Source: Medakamo hakoo
Lineage: Eukaryota > Chlorophyta > Trebouxiophyceae > Coccomyxaceae
Reading direction: 5' to 3'
NCBI GenBank assembly: GCA_026636295.1
Contig: CP089454.1
Span: 1-64,000, forward strand
Length of the DNA stretch: 64,000 nt
Within the stretch, counting starts at the first letter, position 1. Each line of letters starts with the position of its first letter. Under the pieces are notes generated by a model, which was not told the DNA's origin, did not search any database, and worked only from the letters and a program-made list of their open reading frames with translations. The position numbers and the translations under genes are program-made. Positions 22,458-63,375 of the stretch are shown here, in pieces.

Positions 22458-24969
22458 TCACTGGTCGCGGCGGGAGCGGCGGCGGGGCGCGGCCGCCTTG
22501 TCGTCGTCGGCCTCGCCCTCCGAGCCGGCCTGGGCGTCGGAGGCGTCAGCGTCGCCGTCGTCCTTCTTCTTGGACGGCGTGGTGGCGGGCGCCTTGCCCG
22601 CCTTTTTGGCCGCGGCAGCCGACGCGGCTTTCTTCGCGGCGGGCACGCCCGCGCCCCGGCCTTTCGCGAGCAGGGCGACCGGCGCGGCCGCCAGCAGCGC
22701 GGGCAGCGCCACCACCACCCACGCCAGCCACTCGTTGTCCGCGACCGCGTCCAGCAGGGGTTCCGCCACGTCGCGCAGCTTGGCCAGGGGGGCGCCCTCC
22801 TCAAACAGGGCCAGCAGGCGGTCGGCCAGGGAGCCGCCGGCGGCGGCCGCCTTTTTCGCGTCCGCCTCGGCCTTCAGCTTGGCTTCCGCCTCCTTCTTCG
22901 CGGCTTCCTCGGCTTCCACCGCGTGCTTGGGCGCCCAGTGCTCCTCACGCGCGGCGGCGGCGTCGGCCGGGTCGGCCGACAGCAGGACGTTGGAGAAGGC
23001 CTGGCCCTTGTCCATCGTCCAGATTTCGAGCGCGACGCCGCCGACCTTGCCGATGGACGCCAGGGGCGTGCCGTCCTCGTAAAAGTCGGGGTTGGGAATC
23101 TTGCGCGGCGCCCAGGGGCCCTTGTAGGCCGGGTTGTCGACCATGGGCGCCGTCCACTTGCCCTTGTAGTCCGGGTTGATCTTCTTGGGGCGCGTCCACG
23201 GCCCGCACCCGGGCGCGTCGGCGCACGCCGGGTTGGGCACCTTGGGCGCCTCCCACGTGCCGTCCTCCTCCTCATCCCAGTCCGCCGGCTGCTTGGCGTC
23301 CGGGTCGTCGACCTCCGCCGGCTCGTCGTCCAGCCAGCCGTCCGGCTTCACCGCGTCCTCGTCGTCCACCATGCGCGGCGCGTCCTCGTCCCAGTCGGCC
23401 GGCTTTTTGGCGGCCGGGTCCGGGATGCGGGCGACGTCCACCCAGTCGGCCGGCTTGGTGTCCTTGGGGTCGTCGATCTCGGACGGCGGGTTGATGGCCG
23501 GCTCGAAGTCTTCCAGCAGGGAGCCGGCCTTCTTGGACACGCCGTCGACGAGGATGTCGTACGACGAGTTGGCCGGGTGGAGGAGGAGGGTGTACACGTG
23601 CGTCAGGCCGTCCGTCTCGACGAGCGGCGGGGACGCCAGGTGCTTCTCCTCGACCTCGCCGCTCTTGGGGGACTTGTGGCGCAGGATGAGGTGGACCTGT
23701 GTGTGCGTGGTGGTGGTGGGACGGAGGGGGGGGGGGGGGGGGGGAGGGGGCACGGCGCCGCGTGAGAAAGCAGGGACGGGTGTGCAAAAAGAAGACAACC
23801 ACCCCAGGGGAGGAGGATTGGGGGCGCCCGCGGCCTCACCCCTCGCCGCCCGCTCCCGGCTTTCCACGGCCGGACCCGGGCAGCTGGGCAGGCTTCACCC
23901 CGCGGGCGCGGCGGTGAAGAGAGAGGGAGAGGCGCGGCCACGCCTCTCTCCAGGCGCGCGTGGCGGGAAAAAAAACAATGAAAACAAGACGGCGCGCGCG
24001 CGCGCTGGCGCGGGCTGAAATTCAAAACGGCCGCCACCCCCCACCTCTGCCTCCTCCCGCCGCGTTCCCTCACCTTGTTCGTCGCCCCGCACTTGTCCGG
24101 GCCGAACATGATGGTGTACGGCGTCGAGTCGACCAGGCCTTCCGGGCTGAAGCCGTCGTCGTCCGTGACCAGCTTCATGTACGCGCCGCCGCACGTCCAC
24201 CCGTCGGACCCGAGCTTGAGCTCATACTGGAAGGCCAGGCCCTGGGCCGGGTCTAGGGGCGACGCGAGCTTGGTGGCCAGGCCGTAGTGCTTGGCGGGCT
24301 CCGGGACCTGCGGGCGGGTGGCGTGGCGGGAGGGGGGGAGGGGGGCGGGGAGGGGCGTGAGGCGTCGCGCGGGAAAGAGGGGATGGGAGCGGGATGGATT
24401 TTTGAATGGGGGGGGCGAGGGGGGGGGAGAGACGCGCGAGCGCGCGTGCGGGTTTCGCCCTGCTGCCCACTGGCTGCCGCCGCCCGCGCCTCCCTCTCCC
24501 ACTCCATCTATGGCCTCCCCTAATCCGGATCCGGCGCATGGGGTGGGTGGGAGGGCGGCGGGCGAGGCGGGACCGGCCGGTTTTTGGAGTCCGATCGGAA
24601 GGAGGGCAGGGCGGACGCGAGCGGAGCGCGGGGAGGCCATGCCTTTCGTCGGGCGCCTCCAAACGCCCGCTCGCCGATGCGCGGCCGGCCCGCCACACCT
24701 ACGGACCCTTGCCCAAGCGCCGTGTCACCCCCGCCGAGGGGCGAGAACGGAGGGCCAGGGCCTGCAAGCGCCGCGCGCGCCCGCCACGCAAACACCAACA
24801 CACGCACCGTGAGCGCGCCGGCCTTGGTGTCGAAGCGGCCCTCGTACTTGGCGTCGCCAGAGTGGGCCCAGGCGCCCAGGTCAGCAAAGGACGACTGGAG
24901 CACGGGCTCGGCCGAGGAGGACGCGACCGCGCCGGCGGCCAGGGCCAGGGCGAACGGGGCGAGGCGCAT
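22458..24969 (-). CDS. CNX: Calnexin, ER membrane lectin chaperone
   Basis: Exons 24969-24808, 24307-24074 and 23696-22458, 544 aa, all phase 0. Signal peptide [20 protein letters not shown], then the lectin domain ([41 protein letters not shown]). The P-domain shows four type-1 units (variants of KPADWDE) and type-2 units such as [20 protein letters not shown], with the conserved Cys pair in [11 protein letters not shown] membrane segment ([20 protein letters not shown]) and a long charged cytosolic tail ending RRRSRRDQ make it calnexin rather than calreticulin. Function: folding of monoglucosylated glycoproteins in the ER. Intron 2 contains an 18-19-base G-run near 23728. Divergent from SAHH across 160 bases. 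Confidence 0.95.
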
Positions 24970-52450: not shown

Positions 52451-53293
52451 TCAAGCGCGGAACGAGTGCGACACGGCCCGCAGCATGGGCGCACACTTGG
52501 CCCACTGCTTGTCATTGGCAGAGACGACAAACAGGAAGGCCAGGTCGCCCTTGGCCGCGACCGCGACCGCCGCGTGCGGGCCCATCCCCTTGGCGCTGTA
52601 ACCCGCCGCGTTGACTTCATACTGGTACTGCGGGTCGCCGCCCTCCGTCCGCACGGCTTTGGCGTCCAGGACGTCGTCCGGCTCCAAGTACGTGCCCGTC
52701 ACGAAGGAGCCCAGGGCGGCGATGACGCTGGTCAGGCTGCCCACCGCGTCGATGGGCAGCTCGATGCCCGGCCCCGCGCGCGGCGTCAGCTTGCGCAGCG
52801 GCGACACAATGACGCGGGCCGAGCCTTCGTCGGGCGATTCAAAGACCACCTCCGTCCAGGGCTCCTCACACTTGGGCTGGCAGTAGTTGCCCGACTGGAT
52901 GTTCGCGACGCGCGCCTCCCGCCACGACGGCGGCACGGCGAACGAGTAAGGTTTGGTCACGGTGCCCGCGCGCAGCGCGGGCGTCTTGGTCGGCCCGGGG
53001 ACGAACGTGCGCAGGTTGTACTGTTGCCCGCCCTCGCCCGCGTACGCCGGCAGGTATTCAGACACCATCTGGACGTCGCCCGCGGACGCGGGCAGGGGGG
53101 CGGGGAGGAGGGCCGCGGCGGCCGTGGCGGCGCCGGCCAAGAGGGCGGACCGGCGTGTGGTGGTGGTGGTGGGCGGCAGCCCGGCGGGCGGCTGGTCGCC
53201 GGCCGCTGCTGCCGCATGCACGACCGCCACACCGCGACGGCGGACCGCGACAGGCCGGCCGATCGTGGCCGACAAGCCCACAATCTGGGTCAT
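52451..53293 (-). CDS. PsbP-domain protein, thylakoid lumen (PPD6-like)
   Basis: Intronless, 280 aa. Transit peptide MTQIVGLSATIGRPVAVRRR, then twin-arginine lumen signal TTRRSALLAGAATAAAALLP ending PASAGD. The mature protein has YNLRTFVPG, KPYSFAVPPSWREARVANIQ, SGNYCQPKCEEPWTEVVFES and a C-terminal LFVVSANDKQWAKCAPMLRA. The CQPKC pair matches plant PPD6-type proteins, in which a redox-active disulfide has been reported; the subfamily call is from memory. Such proteins are soluble lumen factors linked to photosystem function. Divergent from a plastid TPR gene, 337 bases between starts. Confidence 0.88.
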   Translation of the reverse strand: MTQIVGLSATIGRPVAVRRRGVAVVHAAAAAGDQPPAGLPPTTTTTRRSALLAGAATAAAALLPAPLPASAGDVQMVSEYLPAYAGEGGQQYNLRTFVPGPTKTPALRAGTVTKPYSFAVPPSWREARVANIQSGNYCQPKCEEPWTEVVFESPDEGSARVIVSPLRKLTPRAGPGIELPIDAVGSLTSVIAALGSFVTGTYLEPDDVLDAKAVRTEGGDPQYQYEVNAAGYSAKGMGPHAAVAVAAKGDLAFLFVVSANDKQWAKCAPMLRAVSHSFRA

Positions 53294-56033: not shown

Positions 56034-59000
56034 TCACGCCCGGCGCTGGGGCACCGGCTCCACGCCGCCCGCCGGCGGCGCCGCCGGCTGGAACATGCGG
56101 CGCGGCGCGCGGTAGCGCCCGCCGACGGTCGTGCCGCCGGCCGCGCCGGCCGCGCCGGGCTCGCCGCCCAGCCGGTCCCATTCCGCCTTGCACACCACGC
56201 GCAGCACCTCCGGGTCCAGGCCGGTCAGGTCGGCGGCGGTGAGGCGGCGGGCGTTGGACAGGGAACCGATGGCGCCCGAGCCGCGGCCGCCGCCGCCGCG
56301 GCCGCCGACGCCGCCGTCCAGCCCAGCCGCGCGGCGCAGCAGGCTGCGCACCCACCCGGCCGGGCCGTCGACGGGCACGCCGCCGCGCCCGGGCCCGTCC
56401 GCGTCCAACGCCGCCTGCAAGGGGTCGTACTTGCTCTTGGCGGAGGACGGGCCGGGCAGGCCCAGCTCGCCAAAGGCCAGGCGGCCCAGGCGGTCGACGG
56501 CTTCACCCGCCGCCGACGCGCCGCGCGACGCGGCAGAGGCAGGCGAGCCGGCGCCGCGCGCGCCGCCTGCACCCGACCCGACCGTGCGGACGATGCCGCG
56601 CAGGGGCCCGCCCTCGCCGCTGGCGCCCGGCGTGGGCAGGCCACGCACAAAGTCGCGCAGCGGGTCGCCGCCGCCGCCCGGCCCGTCGCCCAGCTTGCGC
56701 AGGGGCGTGCCCTGGGCGGCGACTTCCGCTTCGACTTCGCGGGACGCGCCCACGGCCGCGCGCAGCACCTGGCGCAGGGCGTCGTATTTGGCCGGGTCGC
56801 CCGACCCGGCGCCGGCGCCGGACAGGCCGCCGCCACCGCCGCCACGACCGGCCGCACCGCCGCGCCCAGACGCGATGTCGCCCAGCCCGCGTAGCAACGA
56901 GCGCAGGAAGGAGCCGCCGCGCGGCGGCTCAAACCCGTCCAGCTGGGCGAGGGGGTCGTACTTGTAGTTGCCCGAGGGCGGGGAGATGGTGAAGGGCGAG
57001 CCGGAGGCGCCGCCGCCGCCGTCGGCCATGCCGAGCAGGCGGGCCAGGCGGCGCAGTGGGTCGCTCTCCCCGCCCTTCCCGCCCGCGGCCATGGCGGCTT
57101 CGATCGCCGCCGCGTCGCCGCACGCCGCAGTCGCCGGGTCGGCGACCAAAGCCGCAGCGGCGCGGGCGGCCACGTCCGCCAGGGCGGCCCGGTCGACGCC
57201 CGGCGGCAAATCCATCTGGGCGACGGCCGCCCGCGCGCGCGCCGCGGCCGCGTCGGCGGCGGCCGTGATGGCGGCCGCCGCGCGTTCGGCGGCCGCCAGG
57301 GTGGACGGGTCGACGATGCATTTCTCCTGCCCCGCGCCCGAAGCGGCGGCAACCGCGGCCGCGACCGCGTCGGCCGCAGCTTTGTCGGCCGCCAGCGCCG
57401 CTTTGCCCGCCCGCCCAGCCGCCGACGCGGCGCGGGCCAGGGCTTCGTCCGCAGCTTTCATGGCGGCGGAGCGCGGCGTGGATGGGGCGGGCGTCGGCGT
57501 GGAGGGCGCGGCGGGCGCGGAAGAGCCCGAGCCGGCCGAGCCCGGGCTGCCGGCACTGCGACCGCCGGCCGCACCCGTCGCCGTCGCGGAACCAGACGCG
57601 CCCGCGCCCGTGCCGGCCGCGCCCGCACCACCGCCAGACCCGCTCGTCTGGCCACCGGCACCAGCCCCGCCGGACGGCCCGCCGGAACCGCGGACCATGC
57701 GGTCCCACCAGCCCATGGCTTTCTGGCCGACCGTCTCTTCGCCAGCGCCCGCGGCGCCCGCGGCCGTGCTCGAGCCGCCAGCCGCGCCGCGCGCACCGGC
57801 TTCCAGGCCCGCCCGCGCGGCCGCGGCAGCCTTGTTCGCGGCCGCTTGCGCGTCCTCGGCCAGACCGGAAGCAGTGCGCGCCGCGGACGACAGCCCGGCC
57901 TCGCCGTCCTTCACAACCCCAGCCACCTTGGACTGCAGCGCGCCAGCCTCAGATTCCAGGGCCCGCACGGCCGCATCTTTGGCCGCCGCGCCGTCTTTGG
58001 CCGCGGCGCCCAGGCCGGCGCGAGCAGAAGCGGACGCAGAGCTCGCGGCATCGGCGGCTTTGGCACCGCTGTCTTTCAGGGCGGCTGCAGCCGCGTCGGC
58101 CTTGGCGGCCAGCTCCGCCTTCATTTTTTCGGCTTCCGCTTTGGCGCGGGCCAGGGCGTCCGCCGCCGTCTGCTGCGCTTCTTTCGCCCGCTCTTCCATG
58201 GCGGCTTTGGCTTTGGAAGCGCCGCCGTCGATGGCGGCCAGGGAGCGAGCGCGGGCCTCGGCAGCAACAGCAGCAGCGTCGCGCGCGGCCGCGTCGAGGT
58301 CGGAGGCGGTTTTGTTTGCCAGGGCCTGGCCTTCACCGACGGCGGCGGACGCGCCAGACTTGGTGTCCGCGGCGACCGACCCCAGCGTCGACTTGAGCTT
58401 GGACGCCGCGTCCGCCGCTTCCTTCTCCGCTGCGGACATGGCGCCGGACAGCTGGCCGGCCGCGCCACGGGCGGCGTCGGCGGCCGAACCCGCAGCACCG
58501 CGCGCCGCGTCCGCGGCGGACCCGGCTGCGCCACGGGCGGCATCAGCAGCATCACGGCCCAGGCCAGCCACCTTGTTGGCCGCGTCAGCGGCTTGTTTCT
58601 CGGCAGCAGACAGGCCGCCGGACACGCGACCCGCTGCACTACGCGCCGCGTCGGCGGCCGAACCCGCGGCACCGCGCGCCGCGTCCGTGGCGGACCCGGC
58701 CGCGCCACGGGCGGCGTCAGCAGCATCACGGCCCAGACTAGCCACCTTGCTCGCCGCGTCGGCGGCTTCCTTCTCCGCGGCGGAGATGGAAGAGGAAATC
58801 TGGCCACCAACACCCGACGCGGCGGCTTTTGCCTTGTCGGCGGCCTGGCGGGCCGCTTCTTCCGCCTGTTTGGCGCTGTCGCGCACAGCGGCTTGGGCGT
58901 CAGCAGCGGCGGAGGAACCAGCGTTAGCAGCCCGGCCAAACAACGACTTGCCTTGTTCGACGGCGGCTTTGACTTTCGCCTCAGCGTCCGCAGCAGCGCT

Positions 59001-61334
59001 CGCTTTTTGTTCGAGCGCAGCTTTCGCGTCTTCGGCCGCCCGGCGGGCGGCCGCTTCAGCGCCCGCCGCCGCAGCCTTGGCGTCGTCAGCCGCGCCTGAG
59101 CCGGCTTTAAACACGCGGCCCAGTAAACCCTTGCCTTCTTTAGCGGCGGCGGCAGCCGCGCTCTCGCCCGCCTGCGCGGCAGCACGCACGTCGGCAGCAA
59201 AATCGCCGGCCGCCTCACGCACGCCGTCCGTGCCCGCCGCCGCGGCAGACCGGGCGGCATCAGTGGCATCCCGACCCAGGCCGGCTAGTTTATCAGCGGC
59301 GGCGGACGCTTCCTTCTCGGCTTGGGAGAGACCTTCGGACAGGCGCCCCGCGGCAGAGCGCGCGGCCGCGTCCGCGTCCCGGACACTCCCACGGACGGCG
59401 GCTTCCGCGTCGTCAGCCGCCGCCGAGCCCGCATTGAAGAGGCGGCCCAACAGTCCACGGCCTTCCTTTGCGGCGGACGCGGCGGCGGCTTCGCCCGCGC
59501 GTGCGACGTCGCGCCCAGCGTCCGCGAGGTCTTTCGCGCCCTGGGCGGCCGCGCCGGCCGCGGCACGGGCTTCGGCCGCCGCCGCGTCGAGGGACGCGGA
59601 CGCGGAAGAGGACGTGTCGGAGCCGCCGCCACCGCCACCGCCAAAAAGCTTGCCTAGGAAGCCGCCGCCGGTGGAGCGGCCGGTGCCGGACCCCGGAGCG
59701 CCGCCGCCGCCCCGCTCGTCAGAGGGAACCGCGACGCTCCAGCCCGACGTGGGCGCGTTGGGGCCGGACGTGATGGGCGCGCTGGGGCCGCCGGGCGGGA
59801 CGAGGCCGCGGGCGCCGGTGCCGGTGCCGGTGCTGCCGCCGGCCCGGCCGTCGAGCGCGGCGCGCGCGCGGTCGACCGTCGCGGGCGAGTCGCCGCCGCC
59901 CTCGCCACCGCCGCCACCCCAGCCGCCCAGGCCGCCGGCGCTCCCTCCGCTCCCACCCCGGCCGTCGTCGCCCAGGATGCCGCGGACGTCCAGGCCGGCC
60001 GCGCGCGCCGCGGCCGCAGCCTTTTCTTCCTCGGCCCGCTGCGCCGCGGCGCTCAGGGCCGACCGGCCCAGGCCCAGGGCCGTCATCAGCACGAAGTAGG
60101 CCAGGGCGGCCGTCAGGCGGGCCCGGTCTTCCACGGCAAACCAGTCGTCCAGGGCCGTGCCCAGCCGGGTCTGGGCGCCGGTGCGGGACAGCAGCCACCA
60201 CTCGAGCAGGTCGTCCCACGCGCCCGCCAGGCCGTCGCGCCGCTCCGCCACGGACGCGGCGGGCGTGCCCTTGGACAGGCCCGCCCGGTTGGCGGCGCCA
60301 CGCAGCGCGCCCGCCGCCGCGTCCAGGAACGCGTCGGCGGCCGCGGCCGTGCCGTGGACGGCGGTCCCCACGACGCCCGTCGCCGTGTCGGCCGCGAGTG
60401 CGGCCGCGCCGCTCAGCGTCCCGACGGCCGTGCCGGCCGCTTCGAACACGCTGTCCGCGGCCAGGGCCAGGCCAGACGCAGGCGAGCCGGACGCGCCGCG
60501 GGCGGCGGCGGCGGAGGAGCCCGCCGACGTGTTGATGGCGCCGGCGGGCGCGGACCGGCCAAAGCGGAAGCCGCCGCCGCCGCCCTTTTTCGCGGCCGCC
60601 GCGCCGCCGGCGGCGCCGCCCCCACCCGCACCACGGTCCGCGTGCCAGCCCAGGGCCGAGAACGCGCGCGGCGGACGGGCTGCGTCAGTGTCACCACCGC
60701 CCCTGCCGCCCTTGGCGTCGCCGGGCTCCACGCGGGTGAAGGGCGACGCGCCCGTGGTCAGGGCCTTCCACCCGCCGCCCGCCTTGGAGTCGGCTTTCGC
60801 CTTGCCATCCGACGCGCCACCCTTGGCCGACGCCCAGGGCGAGGAGGAGGAGGAGCCGGCGCCCTTTTTGGCAGGAGCGGAGGCGGCAGTTTTGTGGCCG
60901 CCACCACCACCGCCAAAGCTCCAGCCGCTCCCACCACCGCCGCGAGACGCGCCGGCGCCGTCCTCGCCGCTGCCGCCGACCAGCGACCGGACCGCATTGA
61001 ACGGCGCGGACACGACGGTCTTGGCAGCGTTGGCAGTGCCGGACGCCGTCTTGCCCACGGCCCTCGCCACGTCGCCGGGCAAAGACACGATGGACGAGTC
61101 GTGCGCGTCGTGCGCGTCGCCGCCCTCGCGCCGGTCCAGGAAGCCCAGCGCGGAGAACGCGCGGGGCGGCCGGGCCTGGGCCGTTGAATCCTTGAAGGAC
61201 CGGGAGGCGGACGCAGACACAGAGCCCTGGCCACCACCGCCCCAGTTGAAGCCGGATCCACTGCTGCCGGCGTTGGACTTGGACGCGGCGCCAGACGACG
61301 ACCGACCAGCGGCGCGCGCGCCGCCCGACCCGCC

Positions 61335-61365
<31 letters not shown>

Positions 61366-62214
61366 AGGTCGTCGACGACGCTCTTGACCAGGTTGAAGGG
61401 CGCTTTGATGACGGCCTTGGCAGCGCCAGCCGTGTTGGACGTCGCCCTGGACGCGGCGCGGGCCAGGTCGGCGGGCAGGTGGGCGATGGACGGGCCGCTG
61501 GACCCGGCGCCGACCTCTTCGGCCGCGGGCTTGTGCCAGCCCAGCGCGCTGAAGGCACGCGGGGGGCGGGCCGCGTCCGCGGAGCCGGCGGCGGCCGGCC
61601 CAGAGGACGAGCCTTTCCCCCAGCCGAAGCCGGACGAGCTCCGCCCACCGCCGCCGCCGCCGCCGCCGCCACCGCCGCTCGCTTTCACGGCCTTGGCGGC
61701 GCGCGCGGCGCCCGACGCCGACGCCGACGAACCCTTGCCGCCGCCACCGCCACCACCACTGCCACCACCCCAGTTGAAACCGGAGCCGGTCGACTTGCCG
61801 GACGCAGGCCCGCTGCCGTCGCCGCCCGCGTCGCTGACGAAGCCCTTCAGCACGCGGAGGGGCGCCGAGACGACGCCTTTGGCGGCCGACGCAGACCCGG
61901 ACACCAAGTCTTTCGCCGCAGACGCCGACCCCGTGACCATGCCCGCCGCCGCGTTGGCTGACCCGGTCACAGCGCCTTTGGCCGCGCCCGCCGTCGCCTT
62001 GGTGGACTCGGCGATGGCGCGGGCCAGCTCGCCGGGCAGGGAGGCGATGGACGAGCCCGTCCCGGCCGCCGCCTCCTCGCCCGCCCGCTTGTCCAGCCAG
62101 CCCATGGCGGAGAAGGCGCGCGGGGGGCGGGCCTGCGCGGTTGAGTCGGCGAACGACCGGGCGACGGAAGAGGAGGGGGGGGAGGCCTTGGCGGAGGCGG
62201 GTGCAAACCCCCAC

Positions 62215-62249
<35 letters not shown>

Positions 62250-63375
62250 TGCCGGGGCGCCGGCCCTCGCCGCGCCTGTCGACGCCCGGCCGGCGCCACT
62301 GCCGCCGCTCCCGCCACCGCCGCCGCCGGACTCCAGCTCGCCCAACGCGGCACGCACAGCATTGACCGGCGCGGCCGCCACGACGCGCGCCGCGGACGCC
62401 CCGCTCTCTGCGATGGAGCGCGCGGCCGCGGCGCCGCCCGCCGCGACGCCCTTCGCCGCGGAGGCTGCGGTGCCGGCCGTCTTCACGACGGCCCGCCCCA
62501 AGTCAGCGGGCAGGCCCGTGATGGAAGACGAGCCAGAGCTGGGCGCGCCGCCGCCGGCCGCGCCGCCGCCGGGCTGGTGGAAGCCCAGCGCAGAGAACGC
62601 GCGGGGCGGGCGGGCCTGCGCCAGCGACACAGCGCTGGAGGCGGCTGGGTCGGCCACGACGCCGCCGCCGCCCCACTTGCCGCTAAAGGCCTTGGTGGGG
62701 GTGCCGCCAGGCTTGGAGGCCGGCGCGGACGGGGCGCCGCCCCCGCCCCCTCCACCGCCGCCCCCCGCGTCCACCCAGCCGAGCGCGGTGAACGCGGGGG
62801 GCGGGCGCTTGCCCGACCGCGCGCCGCGGCTCTTGAGCGAATCCACGGCCGTGGGCACGGGCTGGAAGGGGGCGGGGGCCGCGGCTGCGGCCCGGGGGAA
62901 CAGGGCGGGCAGCAGGACGGTGGGCGTCGCGGCCAGGAGCTGTGGGCGTGTGCGTGCGTGTGTTTGTTGGGTTGAGGGAGGGGCGTGAGGGCGGGGGTGG
63001 GTGGGTGAGGGGGTGGGCGCAACAGGGTGGCGCGCAGGGCACTGCGGGTCGACGCATGGCCCACGACCCAATTCAATCGCCGCCGCTGGCGCCTCACGGT
63101 CCCCAGCCCGCCCAATTCCGTCCCAAACCACGGACCAGTAATGCTAGTGCACTGGAGGAGCGCTTGCGCGGCTCATAGTCCGGCACGCACGGCTCGGCCG
63201 GCTCGGGAGGCGGGTCGGCGCCTTGCGGGTTGGCGGTCGCCCGAGCAACCGGCCGCCCACACGCGCCACGCGGTCGGCGAACTGCCACCCCCGGCGCGCC
63301 CTGGCGGACGGGACGGATGGGCAGAGGCGCCAAGCCTCGCACTCCGGGCTTTGCGGGAGTTTGAAGGCTTTGCAT
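56034..63375 (-). CDS. Giant modular repeat protein, unknown function
   Basis: Main exon 62939-56034 (2,301 codons plus stop), preceded by a CACGCCCACAG acceptor; it has no early ATG, so a short first exon is needed. Best candidate: 63375-63343 (MQSLQTPAKPG, donor GTGCGA); ATGs at 63176 and 63057 are alternatives. Regions: six RPPRAFSALGW-type motifs (62.8-60.6 kb) alternating with LPxDLARAV blocks, 11-residue Ala/Lys/Ser repeats, APFNxVxSLV, Gly-rich linkers and G-F-x-W-G; one possible membrane segment (LTAALAYFVLMTALGLG, near 60.1 kb); a long LEA-like helical region with 11-mers such as AAGSAADAARG (59.6-57.8 kb); then WWDRMVRG and a C-terminal part with KYDPL/DPLR repeats. No family recognised. 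Lipid-droplet, membrane-surface or stress-protective roles are inference only. Confidence 0.7.

Follow-up and report, generated by a model that had tools for sequence, protein, structure and literature searches.

A 2,301-codon exon of the green alga Medakamo hakoo encodes a giant modular repeat protein, possibly a scaffold on a membrane or lipid surface

Introduction

Tandem 11-residue amphipathic repeats, giving a long in-phase 3-11 helix of low hydrophobicity, are carried by perilipin 4 and alpha-synuclein. An 11-residue amphipathic helical periodicity is also the defining feature of the group 3 LEA proteins. Ala-rich amphipathic helices of near-neutral charge are common to group 3 LEA proteins and COR15A; the latter, a LEA protein with a stabilising effect on chloroplast membranes, illustrates a possible mode of action of such helices (PMC11043620). 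Among algal proteins, the linkers EPYC1 and CsLinker carry spaced repeats, are mostly disordered and are restricted to their lineages (PMC11570498), while MITH1 and SAGA1 act at pyrenoid membranes (PMC11649565). Here we describe a giant gene on the minus strand of the first 64,000 nucleotides of contig CP089454.1 (assembly GCA_026636295.1) of M. hakoo, a stretch called the window below. The genome of this alga, with 7,629 genes in 15.8 Mb, is among the smallest known in the plant lineage; it is described as comprising 16 nuclear contigs with 72.7% GC, the total being 15.81 Mb when two organelle contigs are counted (PMC9871001). About 7 kb of this very small genome is devoted to a protein without a relative in the collections searched. 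With a probability of about 0.42, we read the protein as a scaffold on a membrane or lipid surface, probably in the chloroplast, in which a repeated short motif, RPPxAFxAxG[WF] (motif A), would serve as a partner-binding tag. In physical terms its repeat design is a known one, here newly combined.

Results

The gene is built around one long exon:

56034..62939, minus strand: main coding exon, codon score +871 in one frame only, exceeding all 200 simulations

This exon (62939..56034, exon 2 of our model) holds 2,301 codons plus the stop, and its frame is stop-free from 63131 to the stop at 56034. Among 200 first-order Markov sequences modelled on the exon, no stop-free run in any of three frames exceeded 1,291 codons, and the longest run of each averaged 640. 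Codon scores were computed with the counts from Table 3 of PMC9871001, stops being set at −10. It can be seen that the coding frame reaches +871 bits, while the other two minus frames score −1398 and −1930 and the plus frames −567, −181 and −2345. In addition, the best-scoring codon segment begins exactly at 62939, the position of a CAG acceptor. These results confirm that 62939..56034 is a genuine coding exon. A chance GC-rich open frame is ruled out by the frame-specific codon score, the simulations and the motif constraint described below, and antisense genes are ruled out by the plus-frame scores. The preliminary description, which had proposed a single long open exon unlikely to be random GC-rich low complexity, was right on both counts. 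Joined to the preferred first exon, the exon gives a model protein of 2,381 residues, of which SLVGGSGEDGAGASR is an example peptide. When 18 of the 31 other listed coding segments were scanned against Pfam, 16 of the 18 had a family above the cut-off, all of them ordinary cellular genes. The giant gene is real, constrained and unclassified.

Motif A occurs in six copies:

62775..62807, minus strand: copy 1, RPPPAFTALGW, residue 125
62580..62612, minus strand: copy 2, RPPRAFSALGF, residue 190
62097..62129, minus strand: copy 3, RPPRAFSAMGW, residue 351
61536..61568, minus strand: copy 4, RPPRAFSALGW, residue 538
61140..61172, minus strand: copy 5, RPPRAFSALGF, residue 670
60645..60677, minus strand: copy 6, RPPRAFSALGW, residue 835

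From the composition, 2e-6 such motifs would be expected. The differences between the copies are mainly synonymous. The ratio of replacement to synonymous divergence (pN/pS) is 0.27 for motif A, a value measured between internal repeat copies and biased downward because the copies were picked for likeness. For the amphipathic helices B of the modules pN/pS is 0.81; synonymous divergence is the same (pS about 0.42 in both), and replacement divergence is threefold higher. As read from the repeat copies, motif A is under constraint at the protein level, which agrees with the earlier remark that short motifs are strictly kept. A strict DNA pattern for the motif has five sites genome-wide, all within the giant gene (copy 1 falls outside the pattern), and the reversed pattern, used as a control, has no site in the whole genome. 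The text strings RPPRAFSA, FSALGW and PPRAFSALG were not found in the literature searched.

The copies are spaced by 65, 161, 187, 132 and 165 residues within region 101-900, which is repeat-bearing, Gly/Ser-rich and basic (isoelectric point (pI) 11.1). F/W-x-F/W-G motifs stand at residues 468, 518, 644, 753 and 871. Modules 2 to 5 are clearly related, 3 and 5 being by far the most alike. Duplication of a two-module unit (3+4 to 5+6) was considered and not adopted. Module 6 is nearest to module 4 by score, and the residues flanking motif A disagree: copies 4 and 6 share 6 of 21, copies 3 and 4 share 7. Such a duplication is only a suggestion from the repeat sequences. A different short motif is confined to the C-terminal region:

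56949..56963, minus strand: KYDPL copy 1, residue 2073
56775..56789, minus strand: KYDAL variant, copy 2, residue 2131
56418..56432, minus strand: KYDPL copy 3, residue 2250

Motif A, the SIxxLPx[DE] helices, the rod repeats and KYD[PA]L thus lie in separate zones, as the preliminary description had stated. The helices, the rod and the regions around them are as follows:

62325..62525, minus strand: amphipathic helix B1, residues 219-285, peak at 98.5 degrees, 0/300 shuffles
61830..62051, minus strand: amphipathic helix B2, residues 377-450, 0/300 shuffles
61362..61490, minus strand: amphipathic helix B3, residues 564-606, 0/300 shuffles, helix in a low-confidence AlphaFold2 model
60975..61094, minus strand: amphipathic helix B4, residues 696-735, 0/300 shuffles, helix in a low-confidence AlphaFold2 model
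60054..60122, minus strand: possible internal membrane segment, residues 1020-1042, Kyte-Doolittle 1.52
57780..59612, minus strand: amphipathic rod, residues 1190-1800 (611 residues), power 42.8 at 99.0 degrees, 0/300 shuffles
56037..57074, minus strand: basic C-terminal region, residues 2036-2381, pI 10.4, found only here in the genome, AlphaFold2 mean predicted local distance difference test score (pLDDT) 42.7

All four B helices are of the SIxxLPx[DE] type with an 11-residue periodicity. The hydrophobicity maximum lies at 98.5-99.0 degrees per residue for the B helices and at 99.0 degrees for the rod (11/3 corresponds to 98.2), and none of 300 shuffles reached the peak in any case. In B2, consecutive 11-mers read AAKGAVTGSAN, AAAGMVTGSAS, AAKDLVSGSAS and AAKGVVSAPLR and identity at lag 11 is 0.46 (0.135 expected). 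The best 18-residue hydrophobic moments of the B helices are 0.43-0.57, with a net charge of +2 to +3 per whole helix, and their spacings are 158, 187 and 132 residues. The rod contains 40% Ala and 26% charged residues in repeats of 11 and 58 residues. To judge it against ordinary proteins, 1,656 windows of 140 residues from 106 coding segments were taken as controls (giant gene excluded; 246 windows above 30% Ala). Only three of the 1,656 reached the weakest window of the rod, and none its median. The top control window belongs to a calreticulin segment (22488-23696), whose repeats have a strong periodicity of 132 degrees.

The preliminary description had also proposed a possible membrane segment and a LEA-like rod. 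An internal hydrophobic segment does exist, but as a membrane segment it is borderline, and the strongest segment of the protein is the N-terminal one. For the rod, periodicity and composition bear out the likeness, but no Pfam model, LEA_4 included, matched the protein encoded by exon 2 at E up to 1.

In its periodicity the rod resembles perilipin 4 and synuclein, being a predicted long 3-11 helix that stays in phase and has low hydrophobicity. Compared with perilipin 4, whose moment by HeliQuest is 0.257 (PMC5889406), mean moments in 33-residue windows at 98.18 degrees are 0.25 in the rod and 0.26-0.39 in the B helices, the two sets of values coming from different programs. In contrast, the leading lags of the rod do not include the 33-mer register of perilipin 4, and the rod is near neutral instead of positive and richer in Ala. 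Unlike perilipin 4 and synuclein, the giant protein adds motif A, a putative N-terminal signal and hydrophobic segments. The perilipin and synuclein families gave no Pfam match (E up to 1), and no sequence relationship is claimed.

No family was recognised in the preliminary description, and the searches agree with it. Pfam and NCBIfam gave no match to the exon-2 protein at E up to 1, and the PDB, searched with a single sequence and with a module profile, gave only three matches, at E 0.87-0.95. Protein searches by region (E limits 0.001, 0.001 and 1) returned nothing among proteins of 0.55-1.75 times the query length sharing exact words with the query. The first two covered the best 7,962 and 7,987 candidates, possibly swamped by Ala/Gly words; the third, with a low-repeat segment as query, scored 473 candidates. 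No relative was found in viral contigs for the N-terminal and C-terminal parts, nor in prokaryote contigs for the N-terminal part alone. In the genome of M. hakoo itself (15,638,232 bases, 16 contigs), the module, membrane region, rod and C-terminal queries found the giant gene only (E up to 0.001). The LEA_4 profile found nothing there, but its controls were equally silent, so that this shows little. An early DNA match on another contig, at 79% over 65 bases, was discarded as too short and GC-rich. Within the collections searched, the protein therefore appears to be an orphan.

The first Met of exon 2 is only at model residue 359, therefore an upstream exon must supply the ATG. Six upstream ATGs can be joined in frame to the acceptor at 62939. 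With splice weights trained on 55 inferred introns from 260 kb of the genome, this acceptor scores 6.78 (median of the 55, 6.67). The preferred start is as follows:

63136..63375, minus strand: preferred exon 1, 80 codons, acid-free Arg-rich leader then RKRSSSALALL, ATG 63375 in frame with acceptor 62939
62940..63135, minus strand: preferred intron, 196 bp, GTCCGT...CACAG, acceptor score 6.78
62889..62939, minus strand: exon-2 part of the N-terminal hydrophobic segment (residues 73-97), Kyte-Doolittle 19-residue peak 2.2, PRAAAA next

ATG 63375 (context GCCATGC) has seven in-frame donors, and the one at 63135 (CTG/GTCCGT, 4.41 bits) scores highest. The predicted leader, residues 1-72, has no D/E and nine K/R among its first 50 residues and in our judgement resembles an organelle import signal. 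The most hydrophobic segment of the protein, residues 73-97, would follow it, with its first eight residues in exon 1 (63136-63159). The join gives RKR-SSSALALLLLAATPTVLLPALF-PRAAAA, one hydrophobic core (Kyte-Doolittle 2.2); its stretch LLAATPTVLLPALF sits in exon 2 and is retained under every alternative join considered. Other options score lower (ATG 63587, donors up to 3.54; 63176, 1.56; 63057, −1.06). Donors 63097 (6.14) and 63190 (5.44) have good scores but are out of frame with ATG 63375, and a two-intron model using both would require a 47-bp intron, as worked out by hand. This start is a plausible gene model; the leader, and hence the compartment, remains uncertain. About 3 kb from the giant gene, a PsbP-family segment (52460-53149, minus strand, Pfam E 1.6e-7) probably encodes a thylakoid-lumen protein, and its leader could serve as a plastid-targeting comparison.

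Discussion

A surface-lying scaffold is favoured because amphipathic 11-mer helices, hydrophobic segments and a multivalent short motif occur in the same protein. The nuclear gene would give a scaffold of about 2,380 residues, probably mostly disordered, which the N-terminal signal and hydrophobic segment would deliver to the membrane. On lipid contact or on drying, helices B1 to B4 and the rod of some 600 residues would fold and coat the surface, and RPPRAFSALGW, carried on flexible Gly/Ser-rich strings, may be a tag to which a partner protein binds multivalently. The model shows Gly/Ser-rich linkers and its pLDDT is low, although a low value obtained without an alignment proves little about disorder. 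M. hakoo forms lipid droplets without nitrogen (PMC9871001), therefore lipid surfaces besides thylakoids exist in it, and such droplets might be the alternative surface. Where a scaffold or a stress-protective protein had been proposed at the outset, helices of the lipid-adsorbing kind have been found; a scaffold is the best reading and stress protection its rival.

Several observations weigh against this reading. The rod is nearly neutral (net −3), unlike the positively charged helix of perilipin 4, in which reversal of the charge from +1 to −1 abolished droplet targeting (PMC5889406). The constraint estimate for motif A carries the downward bias already mentioned. The segment before the internal membrane segment (residues 903-975, 33/300 shuffles) and a helix at 1905-2035 (73/300) are not distinctive. 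The AlphaFold2 models, made without an alignment, show B3, B4 and the surroundings of the membrane segment as helical with a confidence too low to rely on (mean pLDDT 42.7 and 40.9). As to the start, donor 63135 is slightly under the lower quartile of inferred donors (4.86), and exon 1, which would carry the targeting signal, scores negative in all three frames (−38 to −56 bits; −37.8 over the 80 codons of its own frame). Other starts are possible: the strongest donor, 63531 (6.90 bits, 592-bp intron), can be reached from ATG 63792 with a leader of 87 residues or from ATG 63537 with one of two. We set these two aside because, on our own reading, they overlap the first exon of a putative divergent neighbour, which occupies positions from about 63538 on.

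A stress protectant of the LEA type is an unlikely alternative. Such a protein would be disordered when wet, form amphipathic helices on drying or freezing, and protect membranes and enzymes of the plastid with no need of a specific partner. In its favour, the rod is Ala-rich and near neutral (pI 5.7), carries its charged residues of both signs on the side away from the hydrophobic face and has the group 3 LEA periodicity at 99.0 degrees. COR15A folds into amphipathic helices stabilising chloroplast-like membranes (PMC11043620), and the LEA proteins HIC6 and HIC12 of Chlorella vulgaris protect an enzyme against freezing (PMC3749462). However, the giant protein is far larger than group 3 LEA proteins and COR15A, and no Pfam family was found for it; the silence of LEA_4 in the genome has little weight here. 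Six constrained W/F motifs together with hydrophobic segments are, in our judgement, atypical of LEA proteins.

The rod might instead assemble with itself, the 11-residue repeat forming right-handed (hendecad) coiled coils or helix bundles; the protein would then be a structural filament and would not coat lipid. Non-seven periods can support coiled coils (PMC11043620), and the windows of the rod hold a periodicity of 98.5-100 degrees along all 611 residues. However, large hydrophobic residues make up 10% of the rod, which we judge low for a coiled-coil core, and it has neither Cys nor Trp. We consider a filament improbable.

A secretory or cell-wall protein, which seems to us improbable as well, would follow from the second in-frame donor of ATG 63375, at 63342 (GTGCGA). 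Exon 1 would then be MQSLQTPAKPG followed by LLAATPTVLLPALFPRAAAA, which reads as an endoplasmic reticulum signal peptide. This donor, at 3.91 bits, is near the 4.41 of donor 63135, and the cell walls of M. hakoo are thick (PMC9871001). Nevertheless, its use discards the leader which in our judgement resembles an organelle import signal, while it is the 63135 join that forms one continuous hydrophobic core after RKR.

A scaffold of the pyrenoid or Rubisco condensate, with motif A as a Rubisco sticker and the helices tethering the condensate to membranes, is very improbable. Points consistent with it are the basic, Gly/Ser-rich repeat region 101-900 and the confinement of the linkers EPYC1 and CsLinker to close relatives (PMC11570498). 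An LCIB-type carbonic anhydrase domain, part of the CO2-concentrating mechanism, is encoded on a further contig (C3, 749889-750599, minus strand, E 2.4e-75, open frame of 485 residues), though the word pyrenoid is absent from the main text of the M. hakoo papers searched. Unlike EPYC1 and CsLinker, the giant protein has about 2,380 residues. The Chlamydomonas-type Rubisco-binding motif, which we take to be [DN]W[RK]xx[LIVA] and which is not a FLIPPer criterion, has no match in the 2,381-residue model. In addition, the FLIPPer criterion for Rubisco linkers is repeating structured elements spaced 20-120 residues apart (PMC11570498), and four of the five motif A spacings and all three helix B spacings are above this range (one of the eight is inside).

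More speculative, and in our view least probable, is a lineage-specific plastid organiser, in which a giant membrane-lying helix array with RPPRAFSALGW tags would bring Rubisco or a different abundant stromal enzyme to the thylakoids as its client. It would be an independently evolved single-protein counterpart of the EPYC1, SAGA1 and MITH1 set in an alga with a diameter of about 1 micrometre.

If the protein is a membrane coat as we favour, its 600-residue rod would be among the longer known 11-residue amphipathic helices. We know of none so large from this algal lineage. Motif A is strictly kept, so that its partner should be directly findable by pull-down. The gene also bears on the growth of lineage-restricted scaffolds through module duplication.

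A second 11-mer helical protein is encoded on the same contig outside the window (103830-104315, plus strand). Its repeats are of the SAAADGVKSVG type with a periodicity of 97.5 degrees, and they are accompanied by a hydrophobic stretch, GLAIAGGVLAAVAGGALVW, and then by apparent short introns with GTGCGT donors. The giant protein is thus apparently not the only 11-mer protein of M. hakoo.

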